Below are positions 9,552 to 63,912 of a stretch of 64,000 bases of DNA, piece after piece (position 1 is the stretch's first letter; every line of letters begins with the position of its first letter). The position numbers were made by a program, and so were the translations under genes. Location: assembly GCA_903907995.1 (NCBI GenBank), contig CAIVQH010000049.1, forward strand, positions 1 to 64,000, written 5' to 3'. The notes below the pieces were generated by a model that was not told the origin of the DNA, ran no database searches, and was given only the letters and a program-made list of their open reading frames with translations. The stretch comes from an uncultured Verrucomicrobiota bacterium (GTDB taxonomy: Bacteria; Verrucomicrobiota; Verrucomicrobiia; Limisphaerales; UBA9464).

Positions 9552-9629
9552 CGGTGGGGCGAGCGTCCCCGCGAGCCGGGCCGCCCCAGACCAAAGCCGC
9601 TGCGGCTCGCGAGGACGCTCGCCCCACCG
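9552..9629. repeat. Dispersed palindromic repeat (GGTGGGGCGAGCGTCC family), copy 1
   Basis: Arms 9552-9568 and 9613-9629 are a perfect 17-bp inverted repeat (CGGTGGGGCGAGCGTCC). Inner arms GCGAGCCG / CGGCTCGC (9571-9578, 9603-9610) extend the stem. A second copy, sharing also GCGAGCCGGGCCGCCCCAGA, lies at 34896-34969. It is REP-like and sits just before the start of the next gene. Confidence 0.8.
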
Positions 9630-9641
9630 TGCGCCGGATCC

Positions 9642-12449
9642 ATGAAGCTCCTTCATTTGCGCACGTTTCTTAAACTGCGGCTCGCCCTGGTCCCGGCGAC
9701 GCGTTTTCATCCCGTCGTGCTTGCCCGCAGCCTGTTGCTTCTGCTCCTGCTGTCGCCACTCGGCCGTGCCGCCGAGCCGGTCGTCGCCCCCTCGCAGATG
9801 CCACGTGTCCCGGCCACCGAGCCGGCCCAGGCGGCCGCGACGTTCACCCTGCGGCCCGGTTTCAGAGCCGAGCTTGTCGCGGCCGAGCCTCTTATTTCCA
9901 GCCCGGTCGCCGTTACGGTGGATGAACAGGGCCGCGCCTATGTGGTCGAGATGCGTGATTATTCCGAGCGCCGTCCGGAGCGCCTCGGCCGCATCAAGCT
10001 CCTGGAGGACACCGATGGCGATGGACGCTACGACAAGGCGACGGTGTTTCTCGCGGACCTGCCGTGGCCGACCGCCGTCACCTGCTGGGATGGCGGCGTG
10101 TTCATCGGCGCGACGCCGGACATCATCTACGCCAAGGACACGAATGGCGACGGCGTCGCCGATGTGCACGAGGTGGTCTTCACCGGCTTTGCCAGCGATT
10201 ACGCGCCCTACGCCACGAACAAGTTGAACGTGCAGGCGCTCATGAACTCCTTCCAGTGGGGGCTCGACGACCTGATCCACGGCGCGACCAGCATGAGCGG
10301 CGGCAAGGTACGGCTGATCGACAGCGAATTCACACGCAGTTGGCGGGCGCGCGCGGCGGCATACGCCGGCAGCCGCCGGTCCGGCAGTACCCCGGGTTTC
10401 AATCCTCCGCCGACCAATGTGGTCAATCTACGCGGACGCGACTTCGCCTTTGATCCGCACACGCTCGAACTTCGCGCCGAAGCCGGCGGTGGGCAGCACG
10501 GCATGAGCTTCGACGACACGGGGCGCAAGTTCGTCTGCTCCAATTCGGATCATCTCCAGTTGATCGCCTTCGATGATCTGGAAGCCCCGTCGAATCCCTT
10601 CCACGAACTGCCGGCCTCCCGGGCGAGCATCGCCGCGGATGGGCCGAGCGCGGAGGTTTTCCGGCGCAGCCCAGATGAACCGTGGCGCGTCCTGCGAACC
10701 CGCTGGCGCGTGGCGGGATTGGTGGAAGGCCCGGTCGAGGGCGGTGGCCGGCCCAGCGGCTACTTCACCGGCGCGACCGGCGTGACGCTCTTCCGGGGCG
10801 ACGCCTACGGGCCGGACTTCGCGGGTGATGCCTTCATCGGTGATGCCGGCAGCAACCTCGTCCATCGGAAGAAACTGCGTCCGGCACCTGACGGGATCCT
10901 CCTCATCGGCGAACGGGCGGCGGATGAGCAGCAGTCCGAATTTCTCGCCAGCACCGACAACTGGTTTCGTCCGGTCCAGTTTTACAATGCGCCCGACGGC
11001 TGCCTGTGGGTCGTGGACATGTATCGCGAGACCATTGAGCACCCGTGGTCGCTGCCGGAGAACCTGAAAAAGAATCTCGATCTCGACAGCGGTCGTGAGC
11101 GCGGGCGCCTGTGGCGGCTCCAGCCCGAATCATTTGCCGCCTCGGCCACGCGCTCCGAAATCGCGGGCGCAGACACCGACGCGCTGATCGCGCTGCTGGC
11201 GCATCCGAACGGCTGGCATCGCGACACGGCGGCCCGGCTGCTCAGCGAGCGAGCGGATCCGGGGGCATTGCCCGGCTTGCGAAAGCTTGCCGTCAACCCG
11301 ACGAATGCCGTGGCCCGGTTGCATGCGCGGCATCTGCTGGTCGCGCTGGGCGGGGCTTCCGAATCCGACCTGATGACTGCTGCCAACGATTCCTCCGCCG
11401 CTGTCCGGCGGCATGCATACCAACTTCTGGCAGCGGAACTGGCAGGGTCGCTGTCCGAACACGCGAAATGTCAGGAGCGTTTGCAGTTGGCTGCCTCAAC
11501 GGAGACCGATCCGCTGGCCCGGCTTGAACTCGCCTTGGCGCTCGGCCGGCTGGCACCCGGGCAGAGGGTAGGGCCGCTCGCTACGCTGATTCGCCGAGGG
11601 CCGGCGATGGTGCAGTCGGCGGCCATTCACACCGCCAGCGGAGTTGAAGCGATGCTTTGGCGTGAACTGGTGCCGACCCCGATCCGTCCGCCCGCCACCG
11701 GATTGATTCCTGCCTTGGCCGAACTCGCCCGCGTGCTGGGCCGCCGAGGCGAAGCGGGCGAGGCCAAGCAACTGCTGGCTGCGTTGGCTGGTTGGGAAGG
11801 TGAGCCCACCGCCGCGAGGGTTGCCGCCGCCTTCGCTGACGGGCTTGGCATGGAACAGCACGGTGCGCTGGTCGCAAGGTTTGCGCCGCCCCTCCCCGTA
11901 TCCTTCGTGCAGGCGTGGCAACTCGTGACCAATCCGCCGCCCAAACCCAAGGCCTTCAAGCTGCCCCCGCCCAATCCCGACCGCCTCGCCGTGCTGGCCG
12001 CGTTTCTGCCGGCACTCGACCTACGCGGTGATACGCAGCGTGGGGCGGCCATTTTCCGCGAACGTTGCGCGACGTGTCACGCCTTCCACGGCGAGGGCCG
12101 GGCGGTTGGGCCGGACCTCGCATCGGTCGTCGCCAACGGGCCGAACCGGCTGCTGGTGTCCATCCTGGACCCGAACCGCGAGGTCGCGCCGAACTTCGCC
12201 GCCTGGACCGCCGAGCCCAAGGATAGCGAACCGGTCACCGGCCTGCTCGTGCGCGAATCGGATTCTTCCGTAACGCTGAAGCTCGCGGGTGGGACGGAGA
12301 CGACGTTTTCGCGCGCGCGTTTGACGGGATTCAAATCCGAGGGCCGCTCGCTGATGCCTGAGGGGCTGGAGGCCGGGCTGACGCAAACGGACCTGGCGGG
12401 GTTGCTCGCGTGGCTTCTCGCTACGCCCGTTCCAAAGGGCACGCCCTGA
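9642..12449 (+). CDS. PVC-type membrane-bound dehydrogenase-like heme protein
   Basis: Large exported protein (935 residues). An N-terminal hydrophobic stretch (LARSLLLLLLLSPLGRAAEP) is a signal or anchor. Residues about 60-500 are the propeller-like membrane-bound dehydrogenase domain (TIGR02604-type: FTLRPGFRAELVAAEP, DTDGDGRYDKATVF, KDTNGDGVADVHEVVF, HGMSFDDTGR). A HEAT-like alpha region follows (about 520-780). A PVC-specific c-type heme domain with CATCH (about 809-813), HGEGRAVGPDL and LDPNREVAPNF closes the protein. Such proteins are abundant in Planctomycetes and Verrucomicrobia and are thought to oxidise sugars or alcohols in the periplasm. The substrate is unknown. The start at MKLLHLRTF avoids reading through the upstream palindrome. 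Confidence 0.87.
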   Translation: MKLLHLRTFLKLRLALVPATRFHPVVLARSLLLLLLLSPLGRAAEPVVAPSQMPRVPATEPAQAAATFTLRPGFRAELVAAEPLISSPVAVTVDEQGRAYVVEMRDYSERRPERLGRIKLLEDTDGDGRYDKATVFLADLPWPTAVTCWDGGVFIGATPDIIYAKDTNGDGVADVHEVVFTGFASDYAPYATNKLNVQALMNSFQWGLDDLIHGATSMSGGKVRLIDSEFTRSWRARAAAYAGSRRSGSTPGFNPPPTNVVNLRGRDFAFDPHTLELRAEAGGGQHGMSFDDTGRKFVCSNSDHLQLIAFDDLEAPSNPFHELPASRASIAADGPSAEVFRRSPDEPWRVLRTRWRVAGLVEGPVEGGGRPSGYFTGATGVTLFRGDAYGPDFAGDAFIGDAGSNLVHRKKLRPAPDGILLIGERAADEQQSEFLASTDNWFRPVQFYNAPDGCLWVVDMYRETIEHPWSLPENLKKNLDLDSGRERGRLWRLQPESFAASATRSEIAGADTDALIALLAHPNGWHRDTAARLLSERADPGALPGLRKLAVNPTNAVARLHARHLLVALGGASESDLMTAANDSSAAVRRHAYQLLAAELAGSLSEHAKCQERLQLAASTETDPLARLELALALGRLAPGQRVGPLATLIRRGPAMVQSAAIHTASGVEAMLWRELVPTPIRPPATGLIPALAELARVLGRRGEAGEAKQLLAALAGWEGEPTAARVAAAFADGLGMEQHGALVARFAPPLPVSFVQAWQLVTNPPPKPKAFKLPPPNPDRLAVLAAFLPALDLRGDTQRGAAIFRERCATCHAFHGEGRAVGPDLASVVANGPNRLLVSILDPNREVAPNFAAWTAEPKDSEPVTGLLVRESDSSVTLKLAGGTETTFSRARLTGFKSEGRSLMPEGLEAGLTQTDLAGLLAWLLATPVPKGTP

Positions 12450-12458
12450 TCAACGTCT

Positions 12459-12548
12459 TACTCTTAATCGTAATCGTAATCCTCCCCTTCACGGCCATCA
12501 CCGTGCGTGCGCAAAGAGGATTATGATTGCGATTAGGATTAAGAGTGT
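12459..12548. repeat. Hexamer-phased inverted repeat element, copy A (with possible target-site duplication)
   Basis: Left arm (12459-12482) reads as hexamers TACTCT TAATCG TAATCG and TAATCC. Right arm (12519-12548) reads GATTAT GATTGC GATTAG and then GATTAA GAGTGT, complementary to the left arm. The loop is about 36 nt. The element is flanked directly by AACGTC on both sides (12452-12457 and 12549-12554), which could be a target-site duplication. It lies in the 200-bp gap between the heme protein and the ATP-grasp gene. Confidence 0.8.
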
Positions 12549-12649
12549 AACGTCGCCCATCAGACTGGGCGGTCGCTGTGTCGGTGAGCAACTCTGGCCG
12601 GAAACCCCTTTGACTCCCGGCCGCCGGTTCCTAGCGTTCGGGCGGATTC

Positions 12650-35776: not shown

Positions 35777-35851
35777 GGCGTGTTCGTCTATCGGCTAGGA
35801 CATAGCCCTCTCAAGGCTGAAAGACGGGTTCGATTCCCGTACGCGCTACCA
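35777..35851 (+). tRNA. tRNA-Glu (anticodon CUC)
   Basis: A 75-nt cloverleaf can be folded by eye: acceptor GGCGTGT / ACGCGCT (two G-U pairs), anticodon stem TAGCC / GGCTG with loop CTCTCAA giving anticodon CUC, and T arm ACGGG-TTCGATT-CCCGT. The discriminator A and an encoded CCA follow (35849-35851). The D-arm TCGTCTATCGGCTAGGACAT is typical of tRNA-Glu. A terminator lies 7 nt downstream. Confidence 0.9.
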
Positions 35852-38166: not shown

Positions 38167-38254
38167 TAATCTTACTCGTAATCGTAATCATAACCTCTCC
38201 CCGATACGTCGTTGGAAGGAGCGAGATTACGATTACGATTATGACTATGATTAA
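38167..38254. repeat. Hexamer-phased inverted repeat element, copy B
   Basis: Left arm 38167-38196 reads TAATCT TACTCG TAATCG and TAATCA TAACCT. Right arm 38225-38254 reads GATTAC GATTAC GATTAT and GACTAT GATTAA. The arms are complementary in the same 6-nt register; the spacer is 28 nt. It lies between the ends of convergent genes, so it might also act as a two-way terminator. Confidence 0.8.
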
Positions 38255-38272
38255 GAAGAGAGACGAGCCAGC

Positions 38273-48824: not shown

Positions 48825-50477
48825 TCACTTGACCTGCACTTCGTCTTTTTTCGGAGCGTCGCCGGCCACCGGCTTGGCATTCGCCCCGATGGCGAAGAGG
48901 TGGGTCTGGCTGGCGACATACATCGTGCCGTTGGCGATGACGGCGGTGCTGTAAACCGGCGCGCCGAGGTTGGTCTCGCTGAGGACCTCCGCCTTGCTGC
49001 CGCCCTTGGCGGCGAGCACCACGAAGTCGCCGTCCTCGTCACCGACGTACACCTTGCCGTCCGCGACCATCGTGGAGCCCCACATGTGGGCCTTCATGTC
49101 GTAGGTCCAGTTCAGCTTGCCGGTCTCGGCGTCGAGGCAGTGCACGAACCCGGAAAAATCACCGATGAACAGCAGCCCGGTCGCCGGGTCGATGCTCACG
49201 CTGGAGATGGAGCGGTGGATGCCCTTGTAATCCCAGATGACGCCGGTCTTGGTGATGTCACCGGTCTTGGTCGCATCAAGGCAGACCAGGTGGCCGACGC
49301 CCTCGCCATGTTCGGGGTCCTGGCCGGTCGCCACGTAGATGCGGTTCTTGTAGAAGACCGGCGTGGCGTTGATTTCGCTCGGGCCTTCGGCGGCCGGATA
49401 CTTGTACGGCTTGCCGGTCTTGTCGGTCTTGTACTCGGGCGGGTTCAGGTCGGCCCAGAAGACCTTCTTGATGTAGTCCGTGTCCTTGTCTTCCTCCCGG
49501 TCGAGCACTGCGCCAGGGAGCACGGGGATGATCTTCGAGCCGTCGCCCTTTGTCGGCTTGGCGTCGAAGGCGTAGAACACGCCGTCGCCGCCACCGAAGA
49601 ACACGAGCTGCTTGCCATTCACTTTCGCGGTCGAGGGCGAGGTCCATTGGCCGTGGAAGATGCGCGGGCCGATGCCGGCGTTGTCCTCGGCGAGGAGCTT
49701 GCCGGTTTTCGGATCCAGGGCGATGAAGCTCGGAGAGGTTGGCGACGGGATGTTCACGTGCGTCCAGTCCTGCCCGTTGGAGGTGCAGACGTAGAGGATG
49801 CCATCCACCATGATGACGGAGCAGTTCGAGGCGTTGTGCGGGAACACGCCCAGCTCGTCCATCATGTCGTAGCGCCAGATGATGTCGGCGTCGGTCTTGC
49901 CGGGCTCGATCGGCGGCTTGCCCGCGTCGAGCACGAAGTACTTGGCCTCGTCGGTGTAGGGGCCGTCGTTGCCGTTGGCCATGCCCTCGGTGTCGAGGCA
50001 GAGCACCTCGCAGCGGCTGGTGACGACGTAGAGGCGGTTGCCGACGACCAACGGCGAGGCGAGCAGGCCGAGATTTTCCCAGTCGTTGACCTTGCCGGAT
50101 TTCAGCTTGGGCACGACGAGCTGCCAGAGGAACGCCCCGGTCTTCTCGTCAAAGCAATAAAGACAGCTGCGGTCGCCGGTGTGCTTCTTGTCCCGCGGCG
50201 ACTCGTTGTTGGTGCCGACGTACACTTTGCCGCCGGCAACCACGGGATTGCCGTAACTCTGCGAGCCGAGCTTCACGGCCCACTTCACGTTCTTGGTCGT
50301 GGCAATGTCGATCTCCTCGGTGCCCGACTTCAGCTTGCCCGGCTCGAACTTGTCGGGCAGGCCCTTGGCGGGGGAATAGAAATTGCGTCCGGGGTCGTTG
50401 CCGCCCCATTGGGGCCAGTCTTCGGCCGATGCGGCGCAAGCCACCATCACCGCCAGGGTCGCCGTCACCCCATTCAT
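48825..50477 (-). CDS. Exported PQQ-type beta-propeller protein, gene 1
   Basis: 550 residues. Signal peptide (MNGVTATLAVMVACAASA), then a WD/PQQ-like propeller with repeats such as SYGNPVVAGGKVYVGTNNE, CLYCFDEKTGAFLWQ, VYVGDEDGDFVVL and PVYSTAVIANGTMYVASQTH. It resembles BamB or alcohol-dehydrogenase-type propellers, but no catalytic Ca/PQQ ligands can be confirmed by eye. I start at MNGVT because the first six codons of the longer frame (MIKIKI) lie inside the hexamer-phased inverted repeat. It shares its architecture with the gene at 50966-53332; the four-helix-bundle element lies between them. Confidence 0.82.
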   Translation of the reverse strand: MNGVTATLAVMVACAASAEDWPQWGGNDPGRNFYSPAKGLPDKFEPGKLKSGTEEIDIATTKNVKWAVKLGSQSYGNPVVAGGKVYVGTNNESPRDKKHTGDRSCLYCFDEKTGAFLWQLVVPKLKSGKVNDWENLGLLASPLVVGNRLYVVTSRCEVLCLDTEGMANGNDGPYTDEAKYFVLDAGKPPIEPGKTDADIIWRYDMMDELGVFPHNASNCSVIMVDGILYVCTSNGQDWTHVNIPSPTSPSFIALDPKTGKLLAEDNAGIGPRIFHGQWTSPSTAKVNGKQLVFFGGGDGVFYAFDAKPTKGDGSKIIPVLPGAVLDREEDKDTDYIKKVFWADLNPPEYKTDKTGKPYKYPAAEGPSEINATPVFYKNRIYVATGQDPEHGEGVGHLVCLDATKTGDITKTGVIWDYKGIHRSISSVSIDPATGLLFIGDFSGFVHCLDAETGKLNWTYDMKAHMWGSTMVADGKVYVGDEDGDFVVLAAKGGSKAEVLSETNLGAPVYSTAVIANGTMYVASQTHLFAIGANAKPVAGDAPKKDEVQVK

Positions 50478-50952
50478 AATCTTGATCTTAATCATAATCT
50501 TAATCTATCGGTTTAAAATCACGCCGCGTTCACCCGGTAGGGGATGACATCCTCATGCATCCGCGACTCCGAATTGCTCCTGATTAAGCCCACCAGCATC
50601 GAGACAATCTCAATCAATGCCAGCTTGCCGGGCTCTGAATCCGTCTCGGTTAAAATCTTCCTAGCCACCAGGACATCCAACGCGGCCGCACACTCCAATG
50701 CGGATCCCCGGGCGATGTCGAAGAAACGGCAACGGTCCATCGAAGTGTGACGACCATTGCCCTCGGCGATATTTAGCGGGATGGAAGTGGCGGCGCGGTC
50801 CAGCTGTGCGTACGCCGAAAGTTTCGCCGGGATCTTTTCCGAAATCCCGGAGACCCAGGCGACGAACGAGAGTGAACGCTGGTAAACGTTCAGCCTTTCG
50901 TGGTCGAAGCGGGCGGACACGGGATTAAGATTAAGATTACGATTAGGATTAA
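50477..50952 (-). mobile_element. IVS-like element: hexamer-phased inverted repeats around a four-helix-bundle gene
   Basis: Left arm 50477-50506 reads TAATCT TGATCT TAATCA and TAATCT TAATCT. Right arm 50923-50952 reads GATTAA GATTAA GATTAC and GATTAG GATTAA. Both are in 6-nt register and mutually complementary, enclosing 416 bp that hold the four-helix-bundle gene and little else. The left end touches the ATG of the downstream PQQ gene. In 23S rRNA intervening sequences, a gene of this protein family is likewise enclosed by complementary ends cut by RNase III. Gene-less copies of the same arms occur at 12459, 38167 and 60614. No clear target-site duplication is seen here. That it moves as a unit is inference. 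Confidence 0.65.
50519..50920 (-). CDS. Four-helix-bundle protein (23S rRNA IVS / S23 family)
   Basis: 133 residues, family TIGR02436/S23. The helix-bundle core motif QLDRAATSIPLNIAEGNGRH is typical of this family (usual form RRAAVSIPANIAEG). Other parts (ERLNVYQRSLSFVAWV, ALECAAALDVLVARKIL) fit the four helices. Homologues are encoded in 23S rRNA intervening sequences, and the fold is shared with Avd proteins of diversity-generating retroelements, which bind nucleic acid. The start is a GTG 2 nt from the right hexamer array. The gene lies between two operon-like PQQ genes, enclosed by the phased inverted repeats, with no other gene inside. Biochemical role unknown. Confidence 0.88.
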   Translation of the reverse strand: MSARFDHERLNVYQRSLSFVAWVSGISEKIPAKLSAYAQLDRAATSIPLNIAEGNGRHTSMDRCRFFDIARGSALECAAALDVLVARKILTETDSEPGKLALIEIVSMLVGLIRSNSESRMHEDVIPYRVNAA

Positions 50953-50965
50953 GAACCGATCGGGC

Positions 50966-60555: not shown

Positions 60556-60613
60556 GGCCCACAGGAGCAGGTTTTGTGTTCTCGGACAAGCCGCTGCATC
60601 CCGCAATCCATCC

Positions 60614-60686
60614 TAATCGTAATCTTCCTCGTCTTCTTAATCCTCTCGCTCTCCGCGATTAGGATTACGAGCAAGATTGGGATTAG
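60614..60686. repeat. Hexamer-phased inverted repeat element, copy C
   Basis: Left arm 60614-60643 reads TAATCG TAATCT TCCTCG and TCTTCT TAATCC. Right arm 60657-60686 reads GATTAG GATTAC GAGCAA and GATTGG GATTAG. Two units in each arm have decayed but the 6-nt register is intact, and the spacer is 13 nt. It lies between the end of the RluE-like gene and the start of the NUDIX gene. Confidence 0.78.
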
Positions 60687-60697
60687 GACTCTGTCCG

Positions 60698-63556: not shown

Positions 63557-63912
63557 AGACCCATATTTTTGCAGTCGAATCGGAGACGTTCCGATCCCCG
63601 TTCACGACGAGCGAACTGACGATGCGCTGGTGGGGCGGTCGCTGTTGCGACGCCCCTTATTTTCGCCCTGACCAGCGCAGCGCCGTCGGGGCGTTTTCCC
63701 ACGGGCATTTCCGGTTGACCACGGCTACCCTTGTGGCCTTCGGCTCTGGGGCGGTCGGCCGTCTGCATCGCTGCGCTCGCGGGACGGCGAATTCAGGGCA
63801 ACGCGACAGCGTTGCCCCACCCAGTTGGATGGTGGAAGCCTGGCGGCTCCGGGATTCAACCCGCTGAGACGCAGTTGCGCCTCGGCCTCCGGGCATGGAC
63901 ATTCCCGCACCG
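63557..63912. other. Intergenic region after gatA with short palindromes
   Basis: 356 bp with no gene seen. GGGCAACGC / GCGTTGCCC (63796-63804, 63809-63817, loop GACA) is a perfect 9-bp palindrome. Other GC-rich short inverted repeats lie around 63690-63790. It probably holds the promoter of the next gene; no clear box is identifiable. Confidence 0.5.

Follow-up and report, generated by a model that had tools for sequence, protein, structure and literature searches.

The stretch at 12450-12550 is probably a gene-less, non-autonomous member of a dispersed repeat family whose gene-bearing members encode 23S rRNA intervening-sequence proteins (IVP; S23, PF05635) of a distinct group, and whose arms would be read by a pentameric IVP ring, one hexamer per subunit. 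Positions refer to the window, the whole 64-kb stretch of DNA that was analysed, which belongs to a genome of 5.1 Mb (G000). A relative, G003, was used for orthologous comparison. The parts of the element, read from the sequence, and the other features of the window were as follows.

12450 to 12481, + strand: left arm, TC-A-ACGTC-T-TACTC-T-TAATC-G-TAATC-G-TAATC; an outer TC and five TNNTCN units, the outermost decayed to ACGTC
12452 to 12457, + strand: left AACGTC, within the outermost unit (spacer A plus ACGTC) and in register
12482 to 12518, + strand: loop of 37 nt, gene-less
12519 to 12550, + strand: right arm, GATTA-T-GATTG-C-GATTA-G-GATTA-A-GAGTG-T-AA; five GANNAN units, with an outer AA in place of the usual GA
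12549 to 12554, + strand: right AACGTC, beginning at the final two bases of the right arm
35777 to 35848: tRNA gene (Rfam)
38167 to 38259, no strand assigned: gene-less hairpin, lying between two convergent genes; the matching place in G003 holds a hairpin of TGCTC type
50474 to 50954, - strand: gene-bearing element; TC and five units, IVP gene, five units and GA
50519 to 50920, - strand: IVP gene of 133 aa, PF05635 (E 3.6e-23); TIGR02436 four helix bundle protein
60608 to 60691, no strand assigned: gene-less hairpin; orthologous place in G003 without hairpin

The sequence-only reading had described a hexamer-phased inverted repeat, and this is real: in register, 12450-12550 reads as TC, five units, loop, five units and AA. 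The element measures about 101 bp, a little more than the limits of 12459-12548 given there. A tolerant arm caller sets the start of the left arm at 12447. With at most one mismatch, TAATCNTAATC had 26 matches in the window against 0.29 expected, and TAATCNTAATCNTAATC (three exact units) had 49 matches in the G000 genome against none for the reversed control. Chance is therefore excluded as an explanation of the units. The + strand of 12450-12550 folded as RNA at -43.9 kcal/mol (z -8.1). A coding role, with the units as hydrophobic codons, was considered and dropped, as the frames at 12459 differ by eye between G000 and G003.

Elements of the family consist of two arms of TNNTCN units, mostly TAATCN, in which the sixth base is nearly free. 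The unit cores in 39 hairpins comprised TAATC (209), TGCTC (65), TACTC (32) and TGATC (15), plus others. A scorer for TNNTC units found 32 hairpins in 864 kb of G000, mostly picked around three-unit matches. In 1.574 Mb of G003 it found 25, and neither set of sequences gave any when read in reverse. The arms have a fixed polarity. Among strict three-unit runs, the order TNNTC to GANNA was seen 27 times in G000 and five times in the first 395 kb of G003, the opposite order was seen in neither, and the reversed motif gave one case in each genome. The outer ends were TCN and NGA in 26 and 27 of the 32 G000 hairpins and in 24 and 19 of the 25 from G003.

The family is widely spread. Complete TAATC hairpins occupied at least 119 stretches of genome contigs (at least 123 matches), and the taxa among the matches listed were Verrucomicrobia, Lentisphaerae, Kiritimatiellales, Planctomycetota, Desulfobacteraceae, other Deltaproteobacteria, Ignavibacteria and one Bacteroidetes MAG. 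Chthoniobacter flavus, a laboratory species of Verrucomicrobiota, is among the carriers. Within the phylum, 35 of 387 genomes contained the hairpin pattern, with up to 129 matches per genome and strand when overlapping registers are included; the reversed control pattern matched in one of those 35 (G119). Two viral contigs carried the pattern, and no close IVP relative was found in viral contigs. Four distant IVPs were found on plasmids.

The relation between the gene-less hairpin and the gene-bearing element, proposed in the sequence-only reading, was upheld, and IVP genes with like arms recur across the phylum. We collected the 30 nearest IVP homologues by protein search alone (387 genomes, one locus per genome, the first being the window's own). 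By the TNNTC scorer, both arms lay within about 250 bp at 23 of these 30 loci. A count by protein hit, in which the gene limits differed a little, gave 22 of 31. One arm only was present at L360, L369, L370, L373 and L382, and neither at L384, L385 and L386. The same scorer found arms at 2 of 32 other PF05635 hits from 19 relatives (L121 and L122), and at none of 18 Y1-transposase loci, 56 positions shifted by 900 bp or 2000 random G000 positions. The IVP at L121 has AAATCG-type arms; its genome, G015, contains ten IVP hits, of which several are interrupted by internal stops. At L122, the DNA from 1922, directly 3' of the right arm, resembles the 5' end of a group II intron. Rfam at the gathering threshold gave the tRNA as the sole match in the window and four loci, with no group II intron and no 23S rRNA.

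Four arm types, assigned by eye, occurred at IVP loci: TAATC, TTCTC, TTGTC and AAATC. A tree of 68 IVPs was built on few columns, and has many open forks, from the proteins nearest to the window IVP and the best PF05635 hits of the relatives. All arm-bearing rows, including L121 and L122, fell within 36 rows (support 80), alongside three armless ones (L123, L385 and L386). Five arm labels required six changes on this tree against 27.8 when shuffled, and none of 200 shuffles was as low. The TTCTC type accounted for one change, on a branch without support. These comparisons lend modest support to the view that arm type largely follows the protein, and that arm-bearing IVPs cluster in one part of the tree. 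Twelve residues were invariant in 30 sequences of the group: H7, E8, R42, S46, N50, E53, N55, D62, R63, S73, E76 and K99. R42, E53 and E76, among others, seem to match residues retained in IVPs generally. A single-sequence AlphaFold model of the window IVP had a pLDDT of 40.8, too low for use.

Protein and hairpins were also compared across genomes. Where an IVP matched at E 1e-30 or better, TAATC hairpins occurred in 15 of the 19 genomes in which its arms are of the TAATC type, and in none of the 10 in which the arms are of another type or absent. Of the remaining 358 genomes, 20 had TAATC hairpins and no IVP at that threshold, although weaker IVP hits are present in some (G234, G342, G362). 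The split of 15/19, 0/10 and 20/358 gave Fisher p values of 4e-14 and 5e-5, from hand counts that ignore kinship; since the genomes are related, the counts are not independent. Four of the 19 genomes with a TAATC-type IVP had no TAATC hairpin. In the genus, IVP presence and three-unit hits were concordant in six of eight genomes. The discordant ones were G004, with an IVP flanked by TGATC-like arms and no TAATC three-unit hit, and G005, with three-unit hits and no close IVP. The IVP element lies at one conserved place, beside the same genes, in G000, G001, G003, G004 and G006, which argues against recent movement of that copy.

The solved relative family is pentameric, and five units per arm was our expectation. 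This expectation was written down before any count, though after the run lengths in G000 had been seen. Five strict units was the mode in G000 (34/84 arms), in G003 (18/54) and in other bacteria (115/266, with four in 30 and six in 44). After removal of copies sharing a loop, 83 of 182 arms in 91 hairpins had five. The tolerant profile consisted of the outer TC, five units at a conservation of about 0.7-1.0, then a drop to about half, and then background. The tolerant caller counts the outer TC as one unit; its totals were six in 20/50 and seven in 17/50 arms of G000, seven (the mode) in 12/28 and six in 8/28 of G003, and six in 81/260 and seven in 70/260 elsewhere. Arms that enclose an IVP were more variable; among 25 left arms, ten had five units, and among 27 right arms, nine did. 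A count of five is the mode, not a rule. L305 and L374 have runaway arms of 17 and 18 units, that of L305 with a repeated multi-unit block. The sole solved relative that we found, 2gsc (XCC0516), has five chains; according to PMC4990558, it is a toroidal homopentamer whose subunits are four-helix bundles.

We next compared orthologous places. For 15 of 45 G000 sites, the G003 DNA compared included the orthologous stretch, and 14 of these were occupied in both genomes (L043 and position 12754 of L039 were judged by eye from the alignment); the site at 60608 was empty in G003. At three of the 14 shared sites (12450, 38167 and position 9930 of L060), the hairpin sequence clearly differed between the two genomes, and three G003 hairpins faced other DNA at the matching G000 place. 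At L044 3565-3647, a hairpin lies in frame within an HrpB-like helicase gene in both G000 and G003, and the length difference in G003 preserves the frame. In the HrpB-like proteins of G002, G004 and G007 the hairpin is missing; the sequences to either side of it align, and the short loop there is different. The hairpin is probably a gain rather than a loss. This supports the view that hairpin copies behave as insertions. For 12450-12550 itself, no close empty site was found: G002, G004, G005 and G007 are without the element but too diverged there.

The core of the unit was also constrained at resident copies. We counted changes in 13 aligned arms or elements common to G000 and G003, two diverged sites included. 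The unit positions changed in 2/85 (T1), 12/85 (second), 9/85 (third), 1/85 (T4) and 0/85 (C5) cases, against 25/85 for the free base and 205/2452 for the flanks. Units were picked by the G000 sequence, which lowers the core counts, though hardly this far. Copies differed in length, in some cases by 6, 12 or 24 bp; other gaps were not multiples of six. From this constraint, the cores of resident hairpins are probably bound or in use and not mere debris. The free bases of the two arms agreed in 41, 35 and 37% of cases against 31, 32 and 30% by chance (p 0.007, 0.23 and 0.003), and another version of the test gave 37 against 32%. Since this agreement is just modestly above chance, selection for a perfect stem was rejected as the main feature. 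The modest excess may be left over from the birth of the arms.

The sequence-only reading had further proposed that AACGTC, flanking the element directly on both sides, was a 6-bp target-site duplication. Both copies are where it placed them, although the left one lies inside the outermost, partly decayed unit of the arm and so is not cleanly outside the element. The ACGT core of AACGTC is its own reverse complement. We set the ends at the outer TC and GA and scored direct repeats within 18 bp. Of all 158 elements, five (about 3%) had repeats of at least 6 bp, while the shifted controls gave 5-7%: 3/36 in G000, 0/25 in G003 and 2/97 in other bacteria, with controls of 4.7, 5.2 and 6.6%. At 5 bp or more, the values were 13/36 against 16% in G000, 6/25 against 22% in G003 and 18/97 against 20% elsewhere. 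Another form of the test at 6 bp or more gave 4/32 against 1.8 expected in G000 (p 0.09) and 2/25 against 1.6 in G003. The AACGTC pair is outside both counts because its left copy sits inside the arm; adding it brings G000 to 4/36. The orthologous G003 copy has no AACGTC pair, and its flanks, GGGTT and AACCC, form an inverted and not a direct repeat. Most copies therefore lack direct repeats, an outcome that the earlier reading had said would point to chance. It counts against the duplication and not against the family.

These results bear on the other ways in which such hairpins might arise. One view is that selection maintains them for a host function, as terminators, RNA stabilisers or processing sites, the IVP being a coincidental or secondary partner; this is unlikely. 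The core is conserved at orthologous copies, all four strands that we folded gave stable RNA, many hairpins lie just 3' of stop codons, and hairpins of different sequence fill the same slot in G000 and G003. Set against this, the arrangement in G000 is close to background (22 tandem, 6 convergent, 6 divergent and 3 in genes, against 217, 68 and 71 gaps by crude gene calls), free bases pair just somewhat above chance, and the IVP association is left without an explanation. As to a terminator role in particular, the arrangement showed no enrichment over background gaps by these crude gene calls, although stop codons are often near. A classical MITE, with hairpins that depend on a transposase in trans and with a target of 6 bp, such as AACGTC, duplicated on insertion, seems quite improbable. 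The hairpins resemble MITEs as short, non-autonomous, dispersed inverted repeats, present or absent at orthologous places, as with the helicase-gene hairpin found in two genomes and missing from three. At some loci the hairpin lies within longer repeats bearing terminal inverted repeats of their own. G000 alone leans this way at both thresholds (13/36 and 3/36), and L063 has one 8-bp pair. However, there is no duplication excess in G003 or elsewhere and no consistent duplication overall, the outer terminal repeats vary among loci, and the parents seen carry an IVP and no transposase; of the transposases, Y1 loci alone were examined (arms at 0/18).

Palindromes served by a Y1 HUH transposase, as in the REP/RAYT type, are very unlikely here. 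Y1_Tnp genes were present in 19 of 19 relatives searched, with five in G000, and the family resembles REP/REPIN and RAYT in joining many small intergenic palindromes to a gene that bears the same repeats. That gene is an IVP and not a Y1 transposase, though; arms were absent from all 18 Y1 (PF01797) loci, and Y1 genes also occur where TAATC hits are absent (G002, G004, G007). We give hardly any credence to a retroelement, in which a reverse transcriptase would copy hairpin RNA and so spread the hairpins, the IVP helping in the manner of Avd. PF05635 is reported in PMC10053308 to be similar to the DGR protein Avd (4DWL), yet a reverse transcriptase (PF00078) matched in none of the eight genomes of the genus, which are drafts with a completeness of 54 to 96%. 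The 23S rRNA IVS is alike in having an IVP gene for a PF05635 protein between inverted repeats. It differs in sitting in 23S rRNA, whereas the elements here are intergenic or in genes, and in its repeats, which pair as an ordinary stem; that of Coxiella has 28 bp, one mismatch and a bulge (PMC4990558). The arms here have about five hexamer-phased units each, and there are dispersed copies without a gene. The family may be an IVS relative that escaped from rRNA genes. No known kind examined fits the element, within the part of the literature covered: it has neither the location of an IVS nor the duplication of a MITE, and neither the link to RAYT nor the enzyme of a DGR was found. The repeat strings were unmatched in the papers searched, which included few subscription journals and no bioRxiv preprints, and no paper listed described such arms in its title or the opening of its abstract. 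TAATC and GATTA do not occur in the available part of PMC3733652. A figure legend of PMC10910872, which was available in part, names the 23S rRNA IVP among CRISPR associations.

We therefore return to the reading in which 12450-12550 belongs to an IVP-linked family. A homopentameric IVP ring would recognise the arm, one hexamer per subunit, with the sixth base of each hexamer as a spacer. TRAP (trp RNA-binding attenuation protein) is a ring protein that reads evenly spaced triplets with free spacers. The likeness of a ring to spaced repeats with free spacers is an analogy only; the TRAP protein is unrelated and has another ring size. In the present case, the IVP element would supply the protein, and the gene-less hairpins would be dispersed sites derived from it. 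Both arms are kept alike, whereas a single-stranded binder would need just one; the IVP would therefore likely recognise the two ends of the element as duplex DNA or, after melting, the arm on the 5' side of either strand. We infer that the IVP may bind the arms directly, with one unit per subunit, and that it may act in trans to mobilise the hairpins.

If this is so, the whole IVP group comes with a cognate regular motif that allows a direct binding assay, and the pairing of IVP and arms would explain a dispersed repeat family in several phyla. Five subunits and five units would make a candidate code between ring protein and repeat that is quickly checkable. PMC4990558 calls the origin and function of IVS unclear and the S23 proteins of no known function. 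A broader reading, tentative and on balance doubtful, is that the family forms a separate class of mobile or domesticated element. In such a class, five-membered IVP rings would read five-unit arms and would have seeded non-autonomous hairpins in several phyla. They would move arm-flanked DNA, or assist its movement, with no known transposase or reverse transcriptase involved. In that case, the conserved polar residues of the IVP group could include an active site, and the long-standing question of IVS protein function would become open to test.

Some further repeats were noted. L168, L190 and L224 (from one Akkermansia-labelled MAG), L234 and L236 have a common loop and mostly common outer flanks, with differing arm lengths. 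At these five loci, at L211, at L187, L245, L247 and L262, and at L146, L149, L154, L156 and L178, the hairpin is embedded in a longer repeat. The outer sequences of these repeats differ, and some of the repeats carry terminal inverted repeats. At window positions 63632-63656 with their surroundings, and at L037 2371-2701, G003 has a hexamer hairpin, and the G000 DNA has an unrelated palindrome (GGGGCGGTCGC and CCCTCACCCCGG types). It is as if palindromes took each other's place within one slot. Window positions 9553-9636 belong to another palindromic repeat family, which reads GERPREP in frame; G000 and G003 contain tens of copies of it, and these lie on both strands.
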